A stretch of DNA of 64,000 nucleotides from assembly GCA_946480085.1 (NCBI GenBank), contig CAMLHZ010000001.1:868001-932000 (forward strand), written 5' to 3'. Below the pieces are notes generated by a model, which did no database searches, had not been told where the DNA came from, and saw only the letters and a list, made by a program, of their open reading frames with translations. This document shows positions 45,716 through 59,495 of the stretch, piece after piece. Source of the DNA: an uncultured Flavobacteriales bacterium. Its GTDB lineage: Bacteria; Bacteroidota; Bacteroidia; Flavobacteriales; Crocinitomicaceae. Position 1 is the first letter of the stretch, and each line of letters opens with the position of its first letter. The position numbers were made by a program, and so were the translations under genes.

Positions 45716-48700
45716 ATGGCTTTTAGAAAAGAAACACCGAAAAAACAAAGCAGCTTCAATAAGATTACGATCTCGTTGGCTTCTCCTGAGGTGATCCTTG
45801 AGCAATCAAGTGGTGAGGTACTCAAGCCTGAAACAATTAATTACCGTACTTATAAGCCGGAAAGAGATGGTTTGTTCTGTGAGCGAATCTTCGGACCAGT
45901 GAAAGATTACGAATGTCACTGTGGTAAATACAAACGTATCCGTTACAAAGGAATCGTGTGTGACCGTTGTGGTGTTGAGGTTACTGAAAAGAAAGTACGT
46001 CGTGAGCGTATGGGACACATTTCTCTTGTTGTTCCTGTAGCGCACATCTGGTACTTCCGTTCATTGCCAAATAAAATTGGTTATTTGTTAGGACTTCCTA
46101 CCAAGAAGTTGGATCAAATCATTTACTACGAGCGTTATGTAGTTATCCAAACGGGTATCGCTACAAACCTTGATGGATCATCTTTGGCTGAGAAAGATTT
46201 CTTGACTGAAGAAGAGTACCTGGATATTTTGGATACACTTCCAAAAGAAAACCAATACTTGGAAGATACAGATCCAAACAAATTCATCGCTAAGATGGGT
46301 GCTGAAGCTCTTTACGACTTATTACGTCGTTTGAAGCTGGAAGAACTCTCTTACAACTTGCGTCACCAGGCAAACAACGAAACTTCAGTTCAACGTAAGC
46401 ACGAAGCATTGAAGCGTTTGCAAGTGGTTGAAGCAATGCGTGACTCTCAAAAACGTATCGAGAACCGTCCTGAATGGATGATCGTGAAAGTAGTTCCGGT
46501 TATTCCACCAGAATTACGTCCGTTGGTTCCACTAGATGGTGGACGTTTCGCAACATCGGATTTGAACGACCTTTACCGTCGTGTAATTATCCGTAATAAC
46601 CGTTTGAAGCGTTTGATCGAGATCAAAGCACCAGAGGTTATCTTGCGTAATGAGAAACGTATGTTGCAAGAGGCTGTTGACTCATTGTTCGACAACTCTC
46701 GTAAGGCTTCTGCCGTTAAAACAGAATCAAATCGTCCGTTGAAATCCCTTTCTGATTCATTGAAAGGTAAACAAGGACGTTTCCGTCAAAACTTACTTGG
46801 TAAGCGTGTTGACTACTCTGCGCGTTCAGTAATCGTTGTTGGACCAGACTTGAAATTACACGAGTGTGGTTTACCGAAAGATATGGCTGCAGAGCTTTAC
46901 AAACCGTTTATCATCCGTAAAATGATTGAGCGCGGAATCGTGAAAACGGTTAAATCAGCGAAGAAAATCGTTGACCGCAAAGAGCCGGTTGTTTGGGATA
47001 TCTTAGAAAACGTATTGAAAGGACACCCGGTACTATTAAACCGTGCTCCTACGCTTCACCGTTTAGGTATTCAGGCATTCCAGCCTAAATTGATCGAAGG
47101 AAAAGCGATTCGTTTGCACCCGTTGGTAACAACAGCATTCAACGCCGATTTCGATGGTGACCAGATGGCGGTTCACTTACCATTAGGTAACGCTGCAATT
47201 TTGGAAGCTCAATTATTGATGTTAGCATCACACAATATCCTGAACCCTGCGAATGGAGCACCGATTGCGGTACCTTCTCAGGATATGGTCTTGGGTCTAT
47301 ACTACATCACGAAAATGCGTACATCTACACCAGAACATAAAGTTCAGGGTGAAGGAAGTATTTTCTACTCTCCACAAGAGGTAATTATCGCTAACAACGA
47401 AGGTAGATTAGATCTTCATGCACCAATCAAAGTGAAGTCTTATGATTTGAATGCAGAAGGAGTTCCAACGTTGATGATGATTGATACCACATGTGGTCGT
47501 GTGTTGTTCAACGAAGTTGTTCCACGTGAGGTAGGATTTATCAATGACGTATTGACTAAGAAAGCGCTTCGCGATATTATTGGTCACGTATTGAAGATTT
47601 GTGGAACAGCTAAAACAGCTAAGTTCCTGGATGATATCAAAGAATTAGGATATGGAATGGCGTTCCGTGGAGGTTTGTCTTTCAACTTGGATCACATTAT
47701 CATTCCTAAAGAAAAAGAAATTCTTGTTGCGAAAGCAGAGAACGAAGTAAAAGAGGTAATGGCCAATTACAATATGGGTCTTATTACAAATAACGAGCGT
47801 TACAACCAAATCATTGATATTTGGACGCATACAAACTCTCGTTTGACGAATACTTTGATGGAACAGTTGAAAAACGACGATCAAGGATTCAACTCTATTT
47901 ACATGATGTTCGACTCTGGTGCACGTGGATCCAAAGAGCAGATTCGTCAGCTTTCCGGAATGCGTGGATTGATGGCGAAACCGCAAAAATCTGGAGCTTC
48001 TGCACAGGAAATTATCGAGAACCCGATCCTTTCCAACTTTAAAGAAGGTCTTTCGATTTTGGAGTACTTTATCTCTACTCACGGTGCGCGTAAAGGTTTG
48101 GCCGATACAGCATTGAAAACGGCGGATGCGGGTTACCTTACTCGTCGTTTGGTTGACGTTGCACAAGATGTTGTTATCAACATCGAGGATTGTGGAACAT
48201 TGAGAGGTTTAGTTGCAACTTCATTGAAGAAAAATGATGATATCGTTGAACCATTGTACGATCGTATTTTAGGACGTACTTCTGTTCATGATGTTTATGA
48301 GCCTGAAACAGAAAATTTAATTGTTGCTGCAGGTGAATTGATCTCTGAAAATGTTGCTGAGGCTATCGAAAAAGCTGGTATTGATGAAGTTGAAATTCGT
48401 TCAGTATTAACTTGTGAGATGCGTCGTGGTGTTTGTTCTAAGTGTTACGGACGTAACCTTGCAACTCACCGTATCGCTCAGGATGGTGATGCAGTAGGTG
48501 TTATCGCAGCTCAGTCAATTGGTGAGCCGGGTACACAGCTTACACTTCGTACATTCCACGTTGGGGGTACCGCTTCTAACATTGCGGATGTATCGGATTT
48601 GAAGGCAAAATCTTCTGGTAAATTGGAAATCGATGAGTTACGTACAATTTCTCGTAAAGCTGCTGATGGAACTGAGAAAATTATTGTTGTAGGTCGTTCT

Positions 48701-49996
48701 GCTGAATTGAAAATATCTGATCCTAAGACTGGAGTTACATTGATGACATCAAACATTCCTTACGGAGCTGAGATGATGATCGATGCGAATACAACAGTGA
48801 AAAAAGGTGACGTTATTTGTAAGTGGGACCCGTACAATGCGGTAATCATTTCAGAGGTTTCTGGTAAAGTTGTATTTGAGAATATTATTGATGGTATTAC
48901 TTACCGTGAAGAAGTCGATGAGCAAACAGGATTTACTGAAAAAGTAATTATTGAATCTCGCGATAAAAAGAAAAACCCTGCAATTCACATCATCGATCCT
49001 AAGACGAAAGAGGTGTTACGTGAGTACAACATTCCAGTTGATTCACATATCTCTGTAAACGAAGGTGATAAAGCTGAATTAGGAGTTATTTTGGTGAAGA
49101 TTCCACGTGTCGCTGGTAAAACAGGGGATATCACAGGAGGTCTTCCACGTGTAACCGAATTATTCGAAGCACGTAACCCATCGAACCCTGCTGTAGTTTC
49201 TGAAATCGACGGAATCGTTGAGTTTGGTAAAATTAAGCGTGGTAACCGTGAGGTTCAGGTAACATCTAAAGCTGGTGATGTTCGCAAATATTTAGTTCCA
49301 CTTTCTAAACATATCCTTGTACAGGAAAATGACTTCGTTCGTGCTGGTCAACCATTATCCGATGGAGCAACAACACCAAACGATATCTTGAACATTCAAG
49401 GACCTACAAAAGTACAAGAGTACATTGTAAATGAGATCCAGGAGGTTTACCGTTTACAAGGGGTGAAGATTAACGACAAACACTTCGAGGTTATCGTTCG
49501 TCAGATGATGTTGAAAGTAGAGATTATTGATGCTGGAGATACACGTTTCTTGGAAGGACAATCTGTTCACAAAGCAGATTTCATGGAAGAGAACGATGCA
49601 ATCTACGGAATGAAAGTAGTAGTTGATGCTGGGGAATCTACGGAATTGAAAGCTGGAATGATTGTTACTTCTCGTAAGTTGCGTGATGAGAATTCTCAGT
49701 TGAAGCGTGCTGACAAGCAATTAGTAGAGTCACGTGATGCAGTTCCTGCAACATCAACTCCATTGCTTCAAGGTATCACACGTGCGTCATTGCAAACACA
49801 ATCGTTCATCTCAGCTGCTTCCTTCCAGGAAACAACGAAAGTATTGAACGAGGCTGCAATCTCAGGAAAAGAAGATCACTTATTAGGTTTGAAAGAAAAC
49901 GTAATTGTTGGTCACTTGATTCCTGCAGGTACAGGTGTACGTCGATTCAACAAAGTATTGGTTGCAAACCAAGAAGAATTAGACACGATTTCTTAA
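45716..49996 (+). CDS. rpoC: RNA polymerase beta' subunit
   Basis: This 1426-residue catalytic subunit has the N-terminal zinc site at Cys67, Cys69, Cys82 and Cys85 (ECHCGKY... VCDRCG). The magnesium-binding NADFDGD motif is at 476-482 (Asp478, Asp480, Asp482). The second zinc cluster lies in [17 protein letters not shown], and the trigger-loop region [20 protein letters not shown] is intact. The length is typical for Bacteroidetes, which lack the large E. coli insertion. It closes the ribosomal protein/RNA polymerase operon with a strong terminator. Confidence 0.99.
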
Positions 49997-50020
49997 GTAG
50001 AAATAACGTTTTAAAATACG

Positions 50021-50052
50021 AATCCCCGCTTGGTAACAGGCGGGGATTTTTT
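50021..50052 (+). terminator. Terminator of the rpoBC operon
   Basis: A 12-bp stem (50021-50032 with 50037-50048, one wobble), GTAA tetraloop and TTTTTT. Confidence 0.95.
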
Positions 50053-50086: not shown

Positions 50087-50323
50087 ATGGGAATAGCACT
50101 TCTTCTTTTATTTGCTTGCCTGGTGTTCGCGACACGGGCACAATCAGATTCTTTTTAGGAAACGCCTACCAAAGACAACTTCTACTGTTTTTACCAGGTC
50201 GATAAAATGTACACGGATCCCAATCGATCGTATCGAAAAGAACCCAACATTTCGTTGAAGGAAAAGTTGTTTACATCATCACTTTCGCACTCAGCACCTT
50301 ATCGTCTTTCGTATAGATTTTAA
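50087..50323 (+). pseudogene. Small secreted-protein gene interrupted by an in-frame TAG
   Basis: An ATG at 50087 begins a convincing signal peptide (MGIALLLLFACLVFATRAQ, then SDSF) that stops at TAG 50156-50158. The same frame then stays open for another 54 codons, reading ETPTKDNFYCFYQVDKMY onward, to TAA at 50321. The second part is polar and protein-like up to about codon 65; the last codons overlap the end of the convergent T9SS gene (50271). This fits a small exported protein killed by one nonsense mutation, or a decayed remnant. I do not recognise the family. A sequencing error or chance remains possible. Confidence 0.4.
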
Positions 50324-51542
50324 GAATGTAAACGCCTTTTGACAGTTTTCCTGCACCAATTGTTACTGAATTGGTACCTTCTTTTATTGCTACATCTTTT
50401 CGGGAAATCACTTCATTTCCTGCGATATTGTACACAACAAAATTAGCACTTGACTTCTTTTTGGAACTCATTTTTACTTCAATTTCGTTGTCTGTTGCAA
50501 AACAAGAAATGAGCGTGTAGTTGCTTGAGGTAGATGTGGCCGGATCAATTGAAACGATGTTAGAGTAGCGATAGCCTTCATCGTTGTTAATCATTTTCAG
50601 GCGATAGTAAACAGTCGAGTTATGTCCTACATCGGTGTAAGAGTAGTTGCAAGGAGCGTTACCCGTACAATTCGCCTGTTTCGTATAAATTTTTGAAAAC
50701 GTATTTCCGTCAAAAGAGCGCTCTAATTCATATCTTGAGAAATCCGTTTCGTTATCAACCTTCCAGGTCAGTTCAGTTCCGGTATTATCTGCTTTCGTTT
50801 CAGCTTTGAAGCTTAATAGGTCAACGGACAATGCTGTAGGTGTGGTTATGCGAATATCATCGACTGCCCCAGATGGATCCGTTCCTGATCCGTTCCCGTT
50901 ATTTCTCCAGTTGAAACCGATTCTTACGTTAGGATTACTACTGAAAGCTGCTGGTAAGACTAAGTTATAAGTTGTCCATTGTCCCTGACTGTAACCATTA
51001 CATGATCCGCAACAAACGCTTGTTAAGCAATACTGAAATCCTGCAGGCCATGTTGCCCCGTTGTCGGTACTTAATCGAAGTTGCAACCTGTCATCTGAAC
51101 AACCAGCACTTCCATAAGCAATGAAATCGAATGTCAGGGTAATTGTTCCTGGATAAGCCGAAGTATTGATGGTTGGAGAAACTGCAGTTCTAAACGTTGC
51201 ATTGACTACACCTGTTTCGTTGAAACTGGCTCCCATATCGCCTCCCGAACCCGGATCGGCACCAATGTGTAAACTAGCATCACCTATACAACTCGATCCA
51301 CAACCGGGAGGCGCAATTCCTTCTTCCGCACAACTAATGAACCAATTGTTCGGAGAGCCACCAGTTGTTCCACCGTCATTGTCGAGAATAGTCCAGCCAT
51401 TCCATGTACTAGCGATACAATTAGAAGCACAACCATTATTGAAATTATCTGACCAAATAGTGGTTTGACCAAAAGACTGGAATGTCGGAATTACAAAAAA
51501 GAGAAGAAGTAATTGAAGCCTGAAGTGTAGTATTAGTTTCAT
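50271..51542 (-). CDS. T9SS-sorted secreted protein, last gene of the UbiA operon
   Basis: This 423-residue protein has a signal peptide (1-26, ending QSFGQ). Residues about 27-235 form a Cys- and Gly-rich jelly-roll (MAM/concanavalin-like) domain with cysteine pairs such as NNGCASNC and PPGCGSSC and the closing GAVDDIRI motif. A fibronectin-like segment (ELTWKVDNETDFSRYELERS, about 258-325) follows. The C-terminal ~75 residues are a T9SS sorting domain (VVYNIAGNEVIS... GVYILKIYT). The ATG overlaps the stop of the upstream membrane protein by four bases, so it is translated as part of the five-gene operon. Its ligand is unknown. Confidence 0.87.
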   Translation of the reverse strand: MKLILHFRLQLLLLFFVIPTFQSFGQTTIWSDNFNNGCASNCIASTWNGWTILDNDGGTTGGSPNNWFISCAEEGIAPPGCGSSCIGDASLHIGADPGSGGDMGASFNETGVVNATFRTAVSPTINTSAYPGTITLTFDFIAYGSAGCSDDRLQLRLSTDNGATWPAGFQYCLTSVCCGSCNGYSQGQWTTYNLVLPAAFSSNPNVRIGFNWRNNGNGSGTDPSGAVDDIRITTPTALSVDLLSFKAETKADNTGTELTWKVDNETDFSRYELERSFDGNTFSKIYTKQANCTGNAPCNYSYTDVGHNSTVYYRLKMINNDEGYRYSNIVSIDPATSTSSNYTLISCFATDNEIEVKMSSKKKSSANFVVYNIAGNEVISRKDVAIKEGTNSVTIGAGKLSKGVYILKIYTKDDKVLSAKVMM

Positions 51543-52765
51543 AGTTTAAAATTATTTTTTTTTCGCCCAGGTAAATATTCGACAATCAAATGTATTGAAA
51601 ACGAGATGAATAACACTAAAAATAGTTGTAAAGTTGGAAATCCAATAAGCGGTGCACCGAAGGTTAAGTATCCAAGAAATAACAAGCCTACAGAAACCGT
51701 AGCTTGAAAAAGAGCTGACAACACCGGAATTTGCTTAAAACGTAAGGGTTTTTCGTAGAGCACAAACAGTAATCCCCAAACTATGAGTGCAGCAAAGCAT
51801 GTATAAAAAGAAATACAGGCACTTGTACTCAGAATAACCAGAAAGAGGCCGTTTTGCAAACCGAAATGGTTGCTGTTGAATTGGTTATTCCGTCCGAAAT
51901 GATAATAGATCCATAATGTTGTAATGAGTACGATTAACAGCGGGAAGTAATATAGCGTGGTGGGGTTAAGCTTCCAGTTCATCGGATAATTTTTTAGCGC
52001 AAGACTGGCCCCATAGGTAATCAGTCCAATTGCTATAATCAGCCGCACCAAGGCTTGCCAGGTGATGTTAAAAGAAATGGATTTACGCTTGAAACGGTAT
52101 ACAATGAAAAGTATGAAGAACAGATCGAGTGTAAACAACAAATAGATGGATGACTTATCGTCGGGAGCATAACTCAGGTGCAGAAGATCGTTGATTTTCC
52201 CCAAAAAAAACGGAATAGCACCCGAAAGAAAAAGTACGGTGTAAATACTGAAAGTGCCTAAAAGTGCCTTCAAAATATTCCCGGTTTTGGTATACACGTA
52301 ATTGAAACTTGCAAATACCAACAGCACAATTTCGATCCTTATTCCCAGCGTTGCACCTCTGCTTAAGCTTGCTCCGCCAATCGTAACATAGGAGTAGGCG
52401 ATGTCCGAGAAAGAATTAATGGCAAGATAGTTCATCTTGGAAAGTTTGCCCTGAGAAACAATGAGGTCAATAATAGGTGCCGTAAGTGCAATCGAAAAAC
52501 AGCACACTACTAATCGAACGATTTTCTCCATTTTCTCACCTGAAAATAAATGCAGTTGAATCATAAACGCAACAACGATGAAGGTAAACCAGAGACCGAT
52601 GTGTATTGCATCTTCAGCTCTGAATAAGCGTTGATTGGAAAAAAACTCCAAACATAAACGAACACTGAGAATGGCAAGGAATAAAAATAAATAACGCTTT
52701 AAAGGCAAGGTGTTTCCTTCTATAATGTCGACAATTTTCTTAAAAAGCTGCTGGAACTGTTTCAT
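51539..52765 (-). CDS. Polytopic membrane protein of unknown function (UbiA operon)
   Basis: This 408-residue protein has about 11-12 hydrophobic segments spread over its length (for example LFLFLAILSVRLCLEF near 25-42, FIVVAFMIQLHLF near 61-73, LLFTLDLFFILFIVY near 209-223). It has a basic C-terminus (YLPGRKKNNFKL). I recognise no transporter or enzyme motif; His and acidic residues inside the membrane segments are few. It lies between a lipoprotein gene (four-base gap) and the T9SS gene (four-base overlap). It could be a transporter or flippase for the product of the operon, which is speculation. Confidence 0.75.
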   Translation of the reverse strand: MKQFQQLFKKIVDIIEGNTLPLKRYLFLFLAILSVRLCLEFFSNQRLFRAEDAIHIGLWFTFIVVAFMIQLHLFSGEKMEKIVRLVVCCFSIALTAPIIDLIVSQGKLSKMNYLAINSFSDIAYSYVTIGGASLSRGATLGIRIEIVLLVFASFNYVYTKTGNILKALLGTFSIYTVLFLSGAIPFFLGKINDLLHLSYAPDDKSSIYLLFTLDLFFILFIVYRFKRKSISFNITWQALVRLIIAIGLITYGASLALKNYPMNWKLNPTTLYYFPLLIVLITTLWIYYHFGRNNQFNSNHFGLQNGLFLVILSTSACISFYTCFAALIVWGLLFVLYEKPLRFKQIPVLSALFQATVSVGLLFLGYLTFGAPLIGFPTLQLFLVLFISFSIHLIVEYLPGRKKNNFKL

Positions 52766-52769
52766 ACGA

Positions 52770-53657
52770 TTACAATTGATACATTACACCTTTGCCAATC
52801 AGGAGTTCGTTATTTACTAATTGTGTGTTTTCTATTCGAAAGAATCTGAGTTTACCCGTTTCTTCGGAAAAATGAATGGAAGCTTGCTTCATTTTTTTTG
52901 CGTTTTCCCAATAAATCTCATTCTCGTTAAGTATAGGTTTTCCTTCGTAGGGAAAGGTGTTGTAAAGCACATCAATATTGTTGGCATCATCTCGAGCAAC
53001 GAAAAGACTAAAGTGCTGGCCGTCTTCTGTTCTTGTATCGAACCAGTAGTACGAATTCTTAGTCCGATCAAAGAGAAAACCTGCATTCCTGACAATACTG
53101 AGAAAAGCCACATATTCCTGGTTTTCTGCATTCGTACTTTCATCGTTTAGTAGGGTAAGTATGGGTTCGAAAACCCTAACTACAGTGTCATTCGTTTTTT
53201 TTAACTCAATATAAGCGTCTTTTTCGGAGTGTTTCAGTTCCCAATCGACTTCATTTTTTGAATTTTTTCCATGAAACTCGAGTTTTTGTTTTCTAATGCT
53301 CCATCGAACTTCTTCTCCAAGACTGTCATTCAAAGCTGTTCCAAATAAAATTGGAAAACGGGTTTGATTTAACTTTTCTACAGAATCAGCATAAAAACCG
53401 AAGATATTAGCACGTGTGGTATTGGGCTTTAGCAGCGTACAATACGCCAATAAACTTTGTTTGTTCTGTTCGTTAGAACTCAAGATCAGCAAACTCAACG
53501 TAGCGTTTGTAGTGTCTTTGAAAGAATTCGGAAATACAGTCAGGATATAAACCTGATCGCCGATTGCAGTATGTGAAAGTGATTGAACAACTTCCTGTTT
53601 TTTCTTTATACCGCAAGAAAAACAACATAGGAGTATACCGATCAATAATTTATTCAT
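52770..53657 (-). CDS. Uncharacterised lipoprotein (UbiA operon)
   Basis: I start at the ATG at 53657, giving a lipoprotein signal with the lipidated Cys in CCFSCG (MNKLLIGILLCCFSC), rather than 18 codons upstream. The 295-residue protein is beta-rich (for example AIGDQVYILTVFPNSF, EVRWSIRKQKLEFHG) and ends NNELLIGKGVMYQL; it reads like a beta-sandwich or lipocalin-like fold, without a motif I can name. Its start overlaps the end of the QW-repeat gene by eight bases, and the membrane protein starts four bases after its stop. Confidence 0.75.
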   Translation of the reverse strand: MNKLLIGILLCCFSCGIKKKQEVVQSLSHTAIGDQVYILTVFPNSFKDTTNATLSLLILSSNEQNKQSLLAYCTLLKPNTTRANIFGFYADSVEKLNQTRFPILFGTALNDSLGEEVRWSIRKQKLEFHGKNSKNEVDWELKHSEKDAYIELKKTNDTVVRVFEPILTLLNDESTNAENQEYVAFLSIVRNAGFLFDRTKNSYYWFDTRTEDGQHFSLFVARDDANNIDVLYNTFPYEGKPILNENEIYWENAKKMKQASIHFSEETGKLRFFRIENTQLVNNELLIGKGVMYQL

Positions 53658-54666
53658 GACCGAGATTGTGTTGATACAATAACAGTGCTTTATAGGCCAA
53701 AGCAGTAGCAATCAGGTATTCATTCTTTCTGTACCGCTGATTGCGAATTGGAAATAAACCCCCATCCCAGCAACCATTTTGTTTTTGGCTTGCAATGAGA
53801 AATTTCAATCCTTTTTCCACTGCTGATTTGGAGTTTTGATCGGTCTCATTTCCCAGTACCTGAAGCATAAAAGCGGTGTGTAATTCTGCCGAAATATGAT
53901 TGTTGACATCGTTTCCGGAGAAATTCCAACTGCCATTTTCAAGTTGTGTAGCCAGAATGAATGCCTTTGCTTTTCCAAGTTCTGTAGCGTAAATGGTGTC
54001 ATTTTTTAGCGCTGGAACACATTGCCAAAGGGCATATCCAGGTGAATCATAGTATTCCCACGTTTGCCCCCAGGAACCATCTTTCAATTGATGCTGAGCA
54101 ATATAATCCAACGCTGTTTTTTTGTCATACTGGTCGTAATTGGTCAATTCGAACAAATTCACAGCAAATCCGGTAACGGAAGGAAAGTAAACTTCATAAG
54201 CTACATCCGGATTTCCGATAGCCCAACGACCGTTTTTCTCCTGGAGTTGAGCGATTGTTGCAAGCTGTTTTGTGAAATCGGTTTCAGGGTTTATGCGATG
54301 CAATAGTTGAAGGTAAACGGAACTTGTTTCAATACAGTATGACGAAGCACAAGTGGCGTTATGACATATAATTCCGTCTGCGTTTTCAATGGTCTTCAAC
54401 CAGTTGACTCCATGCTGTATAATGCTGTCGTTTTTTTGAGCGTCGTCGAGTAATGCGTCACATACCAGAATCGTTTCCCAAAAATTGAAAAGAACTTTCG
54501 TTGAATCCTGAAACGTGCCGTTTTCATACTGGTGCGTTTCTAAGAATTTCCGTGCTTTAGACACCGAATTCGTTAAACTCTGATCACTTATTTGAGCATA
54601 GAGAGAGTAGTTGCACAAACTGATAGTGGCCCAAACGACCAGAAAATATGTAGCGTTTATTTTCAC
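53650..54666 (-). CDS. Exported protein with terpene-cyclase-type QW repeats (single alpha/alpha barrel), GTG start
   Basis: I start at GTG 54666, where GTGA overlaps the UbiA stop and a signal peptide follows (VKINATYFLVVWATISLCNY to YAQ, residues 1-25); the frame is open further upstream but lies inside the UbiA gene. The 338-residue protein contains five QxxxG-x-W/F repeats at 46-52, 142-148, 193-199, 241-247 and 294-300 (e.g. QLKDGSW, QLENGSW). These mark the squalene/terpene cyclase and prenyltransferase-beta alpha/alpha toroid. It is about half the length of squalene-hopene cyclase and lacks a DxDD catalytic motif. Cys101, Cys106 and Cys111 form a tight cluster. It may bind or modify an isoprenoid or peptide outside the cytoplasm; function unknown. 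Confidence 0.75.
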   Translation of the reverse strand: MKINATYFLVVWATISLCNYSLYAQISDQSLTNSVSKARKFLETHQYENGTFQDSTKVLFNFWETILVCDALLDDAQKNDSIIQHGVNWLKTIENADGIICHNATCASSYCIETSSVYLQLLHRINPETDFTKQLATIAQLQEKNGRWAIGNPDVAYEVYFPSVTGFAVNLFELTNYDQYDKKTALDYIAQHQLKDGSWGQTWEYYDSPGYALWQCVPALKNDTIYATELGKAKAFILATQLENGSWNFSGNDVNNHISAELHTAFMLQVLGNETDQNSKSAVEKGLKFLIASQKQNGCWDGGLFPIRNQRYRKNEYLIATALAYKALLLYQHNLGHE

Positions 54667-55580
54667 CAGTTGTTTTTCAAAATAATGAGCGATATAAGTC
54701 CGAGAAAAAGACTGTTGTGGAGTAAGAAAAGCGGTTTTTCGTTGTACGGTTTTCGAAATAGTAAAAGTAAATGAATTGCGCACATCCCGAGTAGCAAAAG
54801 GGAAATCCAGTTTGTCTGAAAGTAAACAAATACCATCGCATAGGCAGAGATTATGAAAATTGCCAGAAGATTTTTGGCGGCTTTCATCCCCCACAAAACC
54901 GGAATGGTTTTAACCCCGGCATGCTGATCACCTTCCACATCTTTCAGATCAACAAAATTTGCCATTAGCGAAATGGGAATAAGAATGAAGAGCATCCAGA
55001 ATACTGGAAATTCCTGCACTTTTCCATTCGCGGTAAGAAAACCGCAGCAGGCAGAAATGAGTGTGTTAATCCCGATGAGCAACTTGGCCAGAAAAACGAA
55101 TCGCTTTAACTTGAAAGGTTTACAGGAATAGACATAGTAAACAATTGAAAGGCCGAGAATAGTGCAGAAGTAATGTAGTCCGATTGCTGCAGAAAGTAAA
55201 ATGGAAACAACTAAACTCAATCTGGAAATCAAGCGGTAACTGTTCAGCGGTATACTTTCTTTTACCAACGGCCTGTTTTTATTTGAAATTTTATCAACTT
55301 CCAAATCCTCCTCATTGTTTGTTGCAATGGCGAATACAGCCGCATATGTCAAGGCGAAAAAGAAGTTTACCATTTCCAGCCAGGTTTCTGATTCGACCTG
55401 TTTTAAGTCCGGTAGAGCATTGGTGTGAAGTGAAAAACCGAAAAGAAAAACCGCAAAATAATGAAGAATCCTTCCAAGTCTAAGGTCCAGAAATAATTCA
55501 CGAAACAATCCCCGATTTACAGCCCATAACGATGCAATGGGTAATAAAGCACAGATCAGAATTATCAGCTGCAGGGTCAT
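54663..55580 (-). CDS. UbiA-family prenyltransferase, first gene of the five-gene operon
   Basis: This 305-residue integral membrane protein has about eight to nine hydrophobic segments. Both aspartate-rich motifs of the UbiA superfamily are present: NNEEDLEVD (Asn89, Asp92, Asp96) followed by NKNRPL, and DLKDVEGD (Asp211, Asp214, Asp218). They bind magnesium and the prenyl diphosphate, so an active enzyme is predicted. The NRPLV segment is shared with chlorophyll/menaquinone-type enzymes. The acceptor is unknown: there is no quinone or heme gene nearby, and the linked genes are exported or membrane proteins. Four genes follow with overlaps or tiny gaps. Confidence 0.88.
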   Translation of the reverse strand: MTLQLIILICALLPIASLWAVNRGLFRELFLDLRLGRILHYFAVFLFGFSLHTNALPDLKQVESETWLEMVNFFFALTYAAVFAIATNNEEDLEVDKISNKNRPLVKESIPLNSYRLISRLSLVVSILLSAAIGLHYFCTILGLSIVYYVYSCKPFKLKRFVFLAKLLIGINTLISACCGFLTANGKVQEFPVFWMLFILIPISLMANFVDLKDVEGDQHAGVKTIPVLWGMKAAKNLLAIFIISAYAMVFVYFQTNWISLLLLGMCAIHLLLLFRKPYNEKPLFLLHNSLFLGLISLIILKNNW

Positions 55581-57722: not shown

Positions 57723-59495
57723 TTATTCAATTGAAAATAAAAACGTGAAAGAAGTACCCGTAGAATTGGAAACACATTTCATCTCGCTGTGAAGTTGATC
57801 ACTTAATGCTTCAACAATTTCCAATCCTAATGAAGAGTGGTTACGGAAATCGTCACTTTCAAATCCTTTTCCGTTGTCAGAAATATGCATTTCCATTCTA
57901 TTGTTTTCCACTTTCGTGAGAAAGCTCAGTTTCGGAGTTTCTGTATTCCAATAGGCATGCTTCAGGGCATTACTAATAATTTCCGAGGCGATTAAACCTA
58001 ATGGAACGGCTTGATCAATGCTCAATTGCTGGTCAACGAAACTGGTCTGGGTTTCAATCTTGATTGTTCTGTTCGATAATGCTTCTAACTGTAAATTCAG
58101 AATATTATGCAGGTATTTTGCACTATCCACTTTTCCAAGATCCGCATCCTTTTGATACAAACTTTGGTGCATCAACGCAATGGTTTGAATACGTGTTTTA
58201 CTATTTCTTAACGCTTCAATGGCAGTTTCATCTGTTAATTGAGACTCCTGCAGATTCAACAAACTTGAAATGATCTGTAAACTGTTTTTCACACGATGAT
58301 GAACCTCTTTTAAAAGAATTTCTTTTTCGTAAAGTGCCTTATCAATGGTTTTGTTTTGTTCCAGAATTTCAGAATTCGATTTCTTCAGGGCTTTATTCAG
58401 CTTTCGCGATTTTCTGTAATAGAAGATTCCAAGTACAATCAAAATCAGAGTAACGGAAAGAGCGATAAACATAACTGTGGTTTTTCGTTTACTCCGCAGC
58501 AATCTTCTTTTCTGTTCGTCAATGATCTCATTGTTGATCCGCAATTCGTAATCCGTTTCCAATCGGGTAATCAAGGCGTTGTTAGCGTAAGTATCTAAAC
58601 TGTCTTTAGAAACGTGAAACAATTCATTGTACTTCAGCGCTGTTTTGTAATCCCCCTTTAAGGTATATGTCACCTCAAACGCAGAATACGCATAAGTAAT
58701 GTCTTCTAAGCTATGTACTTTTTGGCCTAGTTCTAAGCATAAATTGCAGTAGTACAAAGAGGAATCAAGCATATTTGCCGCTCTGAATTGTCTGCCAATA
58801 TTGTATAACACCAGTAATTCGTCTAACGGATGATTTAGCTTCCTATATTGTTTAAGCGCACGTTTATAAATGGGTAAAGCTTCTTTAGTTTTTCCAGTGT
58901 TTACCAAAATATTCGCAATGTTATTTTGAATCTTTGCCTCGAGATAAGCGTCATTGACCGTCTTTACTTTGTCTTCTGCTTCGCGATAAAATTGAAGCGC
59001 TTTTTCATTTTCTCCCGATTGAAAACAATTGTTTCCACGACCATTGATAACTTCAATTTTTAAGTGCTTGTTATGGTGACTGTTTGCGTAACGTTCAACC
59101 TGCTTAATACAGTTTTCAGATTTTTTGAATTCTTTGGTAACACTGTATGCCTGACTCAAAAGAAGATTAGCCTGGGTTATTCCCGCCTCATTCTTAATTT
59201 GGAAATAGTGTTTATGCGCCTGCAGTCCTTGTTCGAGGGCAAGGTCAAGTTCTCCACGAAATAAATGAATTCGTGCTTTAGCAAGAGTTACCTGCGCCTT
59301 CCATTGAATATTCTTCGAGTGCTGAACAATGTTGTAAGCGGAATCAATAAACATTAGAGCCGAATCAGTATTCACGCGCTGAAGACGAACTGCATTCTGG
59401 TATTGTTTTTTGCCAGTTTGCGAAAAAGTGCTCGTTGACGTTAGAATAACCAACGTGAATAAGAGAAGAATAGTAGCTCGGCAATTATTTAACAT
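57723..59495 (-). CDS. Membrane sensor histidine kinase with periplasmic TPR repeats
   Basis: This 590-residue protein has a signal peptide (1-26, ending TFSQ) and tetratricopeptide-like helical repeats from about 30 to 320 (for example AKIQNNIANILVNTGKTKEALPIY). One transmembrane helix (340-360) and a coiled-coil linker follow. The HisKA_2-type dimerisation domain has EVHHRVKNSLQ with the likely phosphorylated His400. The HATPase domain contains EIISNALKHA (N box) and the DNGKGF motif. No receiver domain and no response-regulator gene is adjacent, so its partner is elsewhere. The EamA gene downstream may be linked. Confidence 0.9.
   Translation of the reverse strand: MLNNCRATILLLFTLVILTSTSTFSQTGKKQYQNAVRLQRVNTDSALMFIDSAYNIVQHSKNIQWKAQVTLAKARIHLFRGELDLALEQGLQAHKHYFQIKNEAGITQANLLLSQAYSVTKEFKKSENCIKQVERYANSHHNKHLKIEVINGRGNNCFQSGENEKALQFYREAEDKVKTVNDAYLEAKIQNNIANILVNTGKTKEALPIYKRALKQYRKLNHPLDELLVLYNIGRQFRAANMLDSSLYYCNLCLELGQKVHSLEDITYAYSAFEVTYTLKGDYKTALKYNELFHVSKDSLDTYANNALITRLETDYELRINNEIIDEQKRRLLRSKRKTTVMFIALSVTLILIVLGIFYYRKSRKLNKALKKSNSEILEQNKTIDKALYEKEILLKEVHHRVKNSLQIISSLLNLQESQLTDETAIEALRNSKTRIQTIALMHQSLYQKDADLGKVDSAKYLHNILNLQLEALSNRTIKIETQTSFVDQQLSIDQAVPLGLIASEIISNALKHAYWNTETPKLSFLTKVENNRMEMHISDNGKGFESDDFRNHSSLGLEIVEALSDQLHSEMKCVSNSTGTSFTFLFSIE

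Follow-up and report, generated by a model that had tools for sequence, protein, structure and literature searches.

The window analyzed here is a stretch of 64,000 nucleotides from an uncultured Flavobacteriales bacterium of the Crocinitomicaceae (assembly GCA_946480085.1, contig CAMLHZ010000001.1, positions 868,001 to 932,000), and its minus strand, on which all features given below for the five proteins lie, carries five adjacent genes between positions 50271 and 55580. In the direction of reading, these encode a UbiA-family prenyltransferase (54663..55580; 305 aa; assigned by PF01040, a 15-row alignment and a tree); a protein with QW-type repeats, here called QW, that starts with GTG and is predicted to form an alpha/alpha6 toroid (53650..54666; 338 aa); a putative lipoprotein (52770..53657; 295 aa); a polytopic membrane protein, here called MEM (51539..52765; 408 aa); and an exported protein, here called T9, with a type A tail of the type IX secretion system (T9SS) (50271..51542; 423 aa). 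The coordinates of the five open reading frames (ORFs) were read from the window sequence; signal peptides, and thus the export of QW, and the lipobox were called by eye. Successive genes are joined by a GTGA overlap, an eight-base overlap, a four-base gap and an ATGA overlap. The original prediction for this DNA had described a five-gene overlapping operon with these junctions, and all five ORFs, their strand, the overlaps and the gap are as it had them.

Recurrence and spread of the five genes

Scanning GTDB contigs with the MEM profile A1 returned 16 loci (L001-L016), titled Fluviicola (2), Flavobacteriales, Chitinophagaceae (2), Sediminibacterium, Ferruginibacter (2), Saprospiraceae, other Bacteroidota or Bacteroidia (6) and a Myxococcaceae metagenome-assembled genome (MAG; 1); since the searches started from MEM, clusters lacking it would escape. 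All five genes are present in 14 of the 16 loci, in the order UbiA-QW-lipoprotein-MEM-T9 in 12 and with T9 first in two (L010 and L011), so that the lack of conservation that would have spoken against the original prediction did not appear. The MEM gene of L013 is split over two overlapping frames, the contig of L015 ends inside MEM, and that of L014, the myxobacterial one, starts within the QW gene, with MEM following and no lipoprotein gene in between. BLAST with the window's lipoprotein located this gene in five loci, position did so in nine and clustering in L010, and the lipoproteins of these loci, of L019 and of the window form one cluster. QW and MEM homologs also include A3D31_18970 and A3D31_18980, respectively, of 'Candidatus Fluviicola riflensis', tags that leave space for one gene between them, and such relatives suggest that the window comes from a Fluviicola-like flavobacterium. 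In the ten loci tabulated, and with longest-ORF starts, the first three junctions range from an overlap to 44 bases and T9 starts between four bases overlapping and 108 bases downstream.

When the ORFs of 18 neighborhoods (L001-L016, L019 and the window) were clustered, each cassette family was found in 17 of them (QW and MEM of L014 exist and were masked by the overlap filter), and no sixth gene was common to the 18: the next family, F4, occurs in five, at varied places and on both strands, and F5 in three. Shared flanking genes occur chiefly inside three pairs, L003/L004, L008/L009 and L013/L016. The five genes are a self-contained cassette. Because the same five genes recur in other genomes, the set is not a chance adjacency of unrelated genes, which the neighborhood clustering together with the co-occurrence described below rules out. 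We also reject a plasmid- or virus-borne element, given that the T9 domain matched none of 72,556 plasmid records and that none of the 72 IMG/VR stretches matched by the search pattern encodes a MEM relative.

Among genomes, MEM is rare and the cassette parts occur together. MEM was found in the centre genome only, both among 395 genomes of the phylum of G001 (a Fluviicola sp.), with at most four candidates scored per genome, and among 193 genomes of the phylum of the myxobacterial genome G014. Among 200 genomes of the family of G001, four (G001, G002, G015 and G671) have a strong MEM match; a fifth match, in G641 (6e-4), spans the UbiA-like half alone. Exactly the same four genomes carry the cassette-type T9 domain (77-85% identity; in G015 half of it is present, at a contig start) and a cassette-type QW (E <= 1e-121). 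Weaker QW matches, from 1.6e-17, occur in 22 other genomes of the 200, many of them in frames of about 750 aa, the length expected of a full-length cyclase, and 84 others have only generic copies of the T9 domain, at 26-51% identity. Similarly, in the order of G012 (348 genomes searched), only the cassette genomes G011 and G012 have strong T9 domains (71-76%), with generic copies (28-47%) in 47 others.

In the phylum of G014 no T9-domain copy was found in the other 192 genomes at E <= 0.001, and G014 itself carries the domain twice, at 73% and 70% identity. Because only G014 has the domain among the 193 genomes of its phylum, this distribution points to transfer between phyla. In the myxobacterial cassette (L014/L056) the T9 domain, at 73% identity, is followed by EGF repeats and a non-T9SS tail, and the myxobacterial T9 homologs end in CGCG or GCGC, followed by a hydrophobic segment and a terminus rich in Arg. 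The MYXO-CTERM model TIGR03382 matches the stand-alone second copy (L053:1941-4226; 761 aa, with EGF-like repeats) at 16.7 bits against a cut-off of 15.85 and leaves the cassette copy unmatched, so that the latter is MYXO-CTERM-like by eye only. No QW, MEM or cassette UbiA was found in the 14 kb read of the 15.9-kb L053 contig, and this copy, standing without other cassette genes, may represent a second client. The myxobacterial contig is unlikely to be a binning contaminant given the third-position GC of its cassette ORFs (0.90-0.93) and the non-T9SS tail with EGF repeats.

A separate observation in the same phylum concerns UbiA genes with Asp motifs in four of the 193 genomes (L054:2274-3752, L063:7408-8895, L064:1523-3028 and L065:7172-8077). 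Where complete, the proteins bear an N-terminal membrane part, for which a comparison with the N-terminal domain of MEM was weak (hhalign probability about 5%, E 0.008) and was not used. Each of these genes and a large neighboring ORF run toward each other, 3' end to 3' end; the large ORFs (465 to 2384 aa) are all truncated by contig ends and have Ig-like, fn3 or BNR matches in part and C-termini that are mostly alike (YCxxxCH and a basic tail such as SLRILRGGxxRRxR), the likeness within the L063-L065 pair being weak (E 0.003-0.025). These fusions represent a second pairing of UbiA with a surface-type protein. Near the fusion gene of L063, a 1021-aa ORF (L063:3713-6778) combines a squalene-hopene-cyclase-like part (PF13243, 281 bits) with an MpaB/rubber-oxygenase part (PF09995, 77 bits).

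Conserved parts of the five proteins

The exported Cys-rich domain of T9 (residues 27-240; 50823..51464) is the slowest-evolving part of the cassette. Over ten loci, namely the window and nine loci of 17, mean identity to the window's protein is 73% (64-83%) for this domain, 50% for MEM, 43% for UbiA, 38% for QW, 33% for the T9 tail and 17% for the lipoprotein, the fastest evolving of the five; the near relatives L004, L011, L013 and L016, L010, from which the lipoprotein was not extracted, and the cut loci L014 and L015 were left out, so that the pairs L010/L011 and L013/L016 have no representative in the comparison. All 121 cassette-type domains compared share ten invariant cysteines. This set comprises the domain of the window and those of the best 120 among 221 homologs (70-93% identity); a locus was traced for a minority of them, and we infer that all lie in cassettes. 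Cysteines 148, 172, 177 and 181 are cassette-specific, occurring in 0, 0, 2 and 1 of 18 generic relatives, and the other six are present in 7 to 18 of the 18. The cassette-specific stretch C172-LTSV-C177-C178-GS-C181 (51000..51029) includes one cysteine, C178, shared by 16 of the 18 generic homologs, and most generic copies have a gap at the stretch that holds the last cysteines.

The tail of T9 varies. A T9SS C-terminal sorting domain is present in the window (residues 351-421; 50280..50492) and in many homologs; type A sorting models exceed their cut-offs here (PF18962, Por_Secre_tail, 29.2 against 27; TIGR04183, 30.6 against 23), in agreement with the export through T9SS that had been predicted for this protein. 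In three of the best 120 homologs (P0258, P0288 and P0302) the domain is followed by PF01345 and an FLDGFE-like C-terminal end, with the DUF11 repeat model below its cut-off in the two that were scanned, and these perhaps represent a third bacterial group with another surface tail. Thus, the domain is kept as the tail changes, and its address outside the cell is probably kept too.

UbiA matches PF01040 with 101.3 bits (cut-off 34.2). In the UbiA superfamily the two Asp-rich motifs follow the pattern NDxxDxxxD and DxxDxxxD. The original prediction had both motifs intact; this holds for the second (DLKDVEGD, residues 211-218; 54927..54950), in which D211, D214, G217 and D218 are invariant in 15 of 15 rows, and not for the first (NNEEDLEVD, residues 88-96; 55293..55319), which in all 15 rows reads NNxxDxxxD with N88, N89, D92 and D96 invariant. 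In a test for housekeeping enzymes (CtaB, MenA, UbiA, MqnP and DGGGPS), UbiA is below the cut-off in each of the 25 NCBIfam models listed of 27, the best being PRK12884 (82.7 bits against 269). In a 38-row tree a single branch separates the 16 cassette UbiAs from 18 other UbiA paralogs, chosen from 90 PF01040 matches in cassette genomes; the support of 91/93 is moderate and below the tool's star, and the myxobacterial rows L082 and L083 were dropped since their longest open frame was the wrong one. Of five paralogs scanned, one exceeds the CtaB, one the MenA and one the ubiA_other cut-off. A housekeeping prenyltransferase is therefore ruled out by model scores and tree, and the firm grouping with MenA, UbiA or CtaB that would have spoken against the original prediction did not appear.

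QW matches PF13243 with 51.3 bits (cut-off 26.1) and has the five QW-type repeats that had been predicted, at Q46, Q142, Q193, Q241 and Q294, each glutamine motif being followed by G. The predicted model is a single alpha/alpha6 toroid of the class-II-terpene-cyclase type, close to the 340-370 aa expected of a monodomain cyclase of the MstE type, and among the structures nearest to it in fold are some bound to farnesyl and geranylgeranyl compounds. The predicted lack of DxDD is borne out in the window's protein, and DxD[DE] occurs in one of 73 listed QW proteins, the most distant, at another place; QW is thereby ruled out as a canonical class II cyclase. As judged from a squalene-hopene cyclase alignment of the next repeat, the place of DxDD is probably taken by residues 101-114 (C101 H102 N103 ... 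C111 I E113 T114; 54325..54366), of which C111 and E113 are conserved in 71, H102 in 68 and C101 in 65 of 73 aligned rows. QW is a predicted toroid with a near-invariant C/H/E set instead of DxDD.

MEM, modeled by AF2 with a pLDDT of 82, has 192 homologs, 120 of them listed, and the A1 alignment comprises 26 rows. Its N-terminal membrane domain (residues 1-225; 52091..52765), with R36, E40, H55, P97, D100 and G137 invariant in A1, gave no relevant Pfam family in the 26 MEM proteins, CPBP/exosortase-type proteases included, a weak relation being possible, no fold match of note in a whole-model search and no PDB sequence match. The second half (residues 230-406; 51548..52078) is predicted by model and fold search to have the UbiA fold, and neither Asp motif is seen in it: the first falls at a gap and the alignment stops at the second. 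This half thus appears to be a degenerate, dead relative of the operon's own UbiA, i.e. an apparent pseudoenzyme. The window's MEM and lipoprotein have no Pfam match; in the lipoprotein all 15 aligned rows have a Cys where the lipobox is expected, and a GxG near the C-terminus is conserved.

A possible isoprenoid-dependent pathway to the cell surface

The original prediction had supposed that these genes make an isoprenoid-linked compound that is placed or used at the cell surface. We suggest, tentatively and as a nearly even proposition, that the cassette encodes an isoprenoid-dependent pathway dedicated to the T9 surface domain; the domain would probably be modified or loaded by the cassette, and the pathway would spread between bacteria as a unit. 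In this scheme, UbiA would make an isoprenoid-derived lipid at the inner membrane; MEM, by its membrane domain and dead UbiA half, would pair with UbiA and pass on, flip or trim the product; the exported QW would hold the isoprenoid in a cyclase-like cavity in the periplasm and process or transfer it via the C/H/E residues in place of the DxDD acid; the lipoprotein would hand the product over at the outer membrane; and the T9 domain would be the client that carries the product, or is covalently changed by it, at the cell surface. The steps are placed in this order because the expected protein locations run from inner membrane through periplasm and outer membrane to the surface, and each transfer is one that we infer. 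In its boldest form, which we regard as rather unlikely, the isoprenoid-derived lipid would be attached covalently to the cysteines of the exported domain with the periplasmic QW toroid as transferase; this would amount to extracytoplasmic protein prenylation, and the client would reach the surface through T9SS in Bacteroidota and by means of a different tail in Myxococcota.

A dedicated pathway is favored by the conservation and co-occurrence of the gene set, by the slow evolution of the T9 domain with its invariant and cassette-specific cysteines, by the myxobacterial cassette that carries this domain with another tail, by the isoprenoid-bound structures near QW in fold and by the UbiA-like half of MEM. 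Several observations weigh against it. No gene for an isoprenoid diphosphate or for an acceptor travels with the cassette in the 18 neighborhoods, and the first UbiA motif has N in place of the first D in every aligned row. In the myxobacterial genome, where the contig is cut, no cassette-type UbiA was found and the sole match is to a distant fusion protein (E 5e-7); its cassette also lacks a lipoprotein at the usual position. The family of the T9 domain is itself ordinary and common in T9SS bacteria, with generic copies, often inside larger frames, in 84 of the 200 and 47 of the 348 genomes; the domain may thus be an adhesin-like fold, and the ten cysteines may simply form disulfides. Finally, T9-domain distances correlate with those of the partners at r 0.24-0.52, compared with 0.54-0.76 among the partners themselves.

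Alternatively, the genes may form a meroterpenoid-type small-molecule pathway in which UbiA prenylates an aromatic acceptor, QW cyclises or otherwise completes the product in the periplasm and T9 only binds or presents it. We consider this possible but unlikely, since 72 of the 73 listed QW proteins, the window's included, lack DxD[DE], QW seems to be exported, the 18 neighborhoods have no acceptor, tailoring or transporter gene in common and a mere binder is not expected to be the slowest-evolving part. One of the known systems closest to the cassette is the merosterolic acid pathway, in which a UbiA enzyme makes the substrate of MstE. MstE, like QW, consists of one alpha/alpha6 toroid, and the two resemble each other in size and fold; MstE is a monodomain class II cyclase that acts on a prenylated compound, according to PMC9401909 and to PDB titles. 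Unlike MstE, QW looks exported, lacks DxDD and is accompanied by MEM, the lipoprotein and a T9SS client. A lipid-linked sugar route, in which a phosphoribosyl-type UbiA, of which examples exist, and MEM as membrane transferase would lead to glycosylation of the T9 domain or another surface polymer, seems to us quite improbable. A redox or metal system, in which UbiA and MEM make a prenylated cofactor and the Cys-rich surface domain carries a metal or thiol cofactor, is highly improbable: it would suit the invariant His and the ten invariant cysteines of the exported domain, which include an adjacent pair and a third two positions further, yet generic relatives share several of the cysteines, as structural disulfides would, and the loci have no other gene, for instance for a redox partner, in common.

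Three other known systems invite comparison with the cassette. Eukaryotic protein prenylation by FTase and GGTase relies on a beta toroid with an Asp/Cys/His Zn site and on an alpha subunit, and it resembles the proposed scheme in combining a toroid, an isoprenoid and a protein that bears cysteines; among the fold matches of QW, Rab GGTase beta stands at a lower rank (1ltx_B, TM 0.56 by query). In contrast to these enzymes, the cassette has no alpha-subunit gene, QW looks extracytoplasmic and its fold is nearer to cyclases. MYXO-CTERM proteins go to the cell surface, and lipidation of their tail cysteine by a not-yet-known enzyme has been proposed (PMC11980579). The likeness here lies in the tail of the myxobacterial T9 homologs; myxosortase is a CPBP protease, whereas MEM has no such Pfam match and the conserved part is the domain rather than the tail. 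Operons of the YfiM-1 lipocone with a UbiA-like protein likewise join a UbiA-like enzyme to a lipid-acting partner, with a function that is predicted only; in PMC12419801 their other named genes are amidophosphoribosyltransferase, RidA and HD and PHP phosphoesterases, and T9SS is mentioned for toxin and TPM-domain contexts. No description of the five-gene system was found in the literature searched, with subscription papers mostly outside its scope; two papers that contain both UbiA and T9SS deal with other matters. The component families are known. As far as could be found, the gene set is new, and so are the fusion with a dead UbiA, the exported toroid without DxDD and the client.

The cassette ties isoprenoid-type enzymes to one exported protein in a strictly conserved set. 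It contains a client with ten invariant cysteines, an enzyme whose catalytic site is altered and, in half of MEM, what appears to be a UbiA pseudoenzyme. Should the client carry a lipid modification, the chemistry of protein lipidation would gain a new location and a new class of enzyme; otherwise the cassette would still point to a surface function under extreme constraint, one that has probably crossed phyla.

Flanks of the cassette

The cassette is convergent with a large ORF (45716-49996) that we take, from its sequence, to be rpoC. Between the two lies a terminator-like hairpin of 13 pairs with a T-run (50020..50049, no strand assigned); the terminator scan found six such sites against a shuffle mean of 5.0, i.e. 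not above shuffles, and a promoter scan did no better than shuffles. Upstream of the cassette, a 590-aa ORF (57723-59495) resembles a sensor histidine kinase by eye, and a homolog of it (family F24) lies near one other cassette, in L013.

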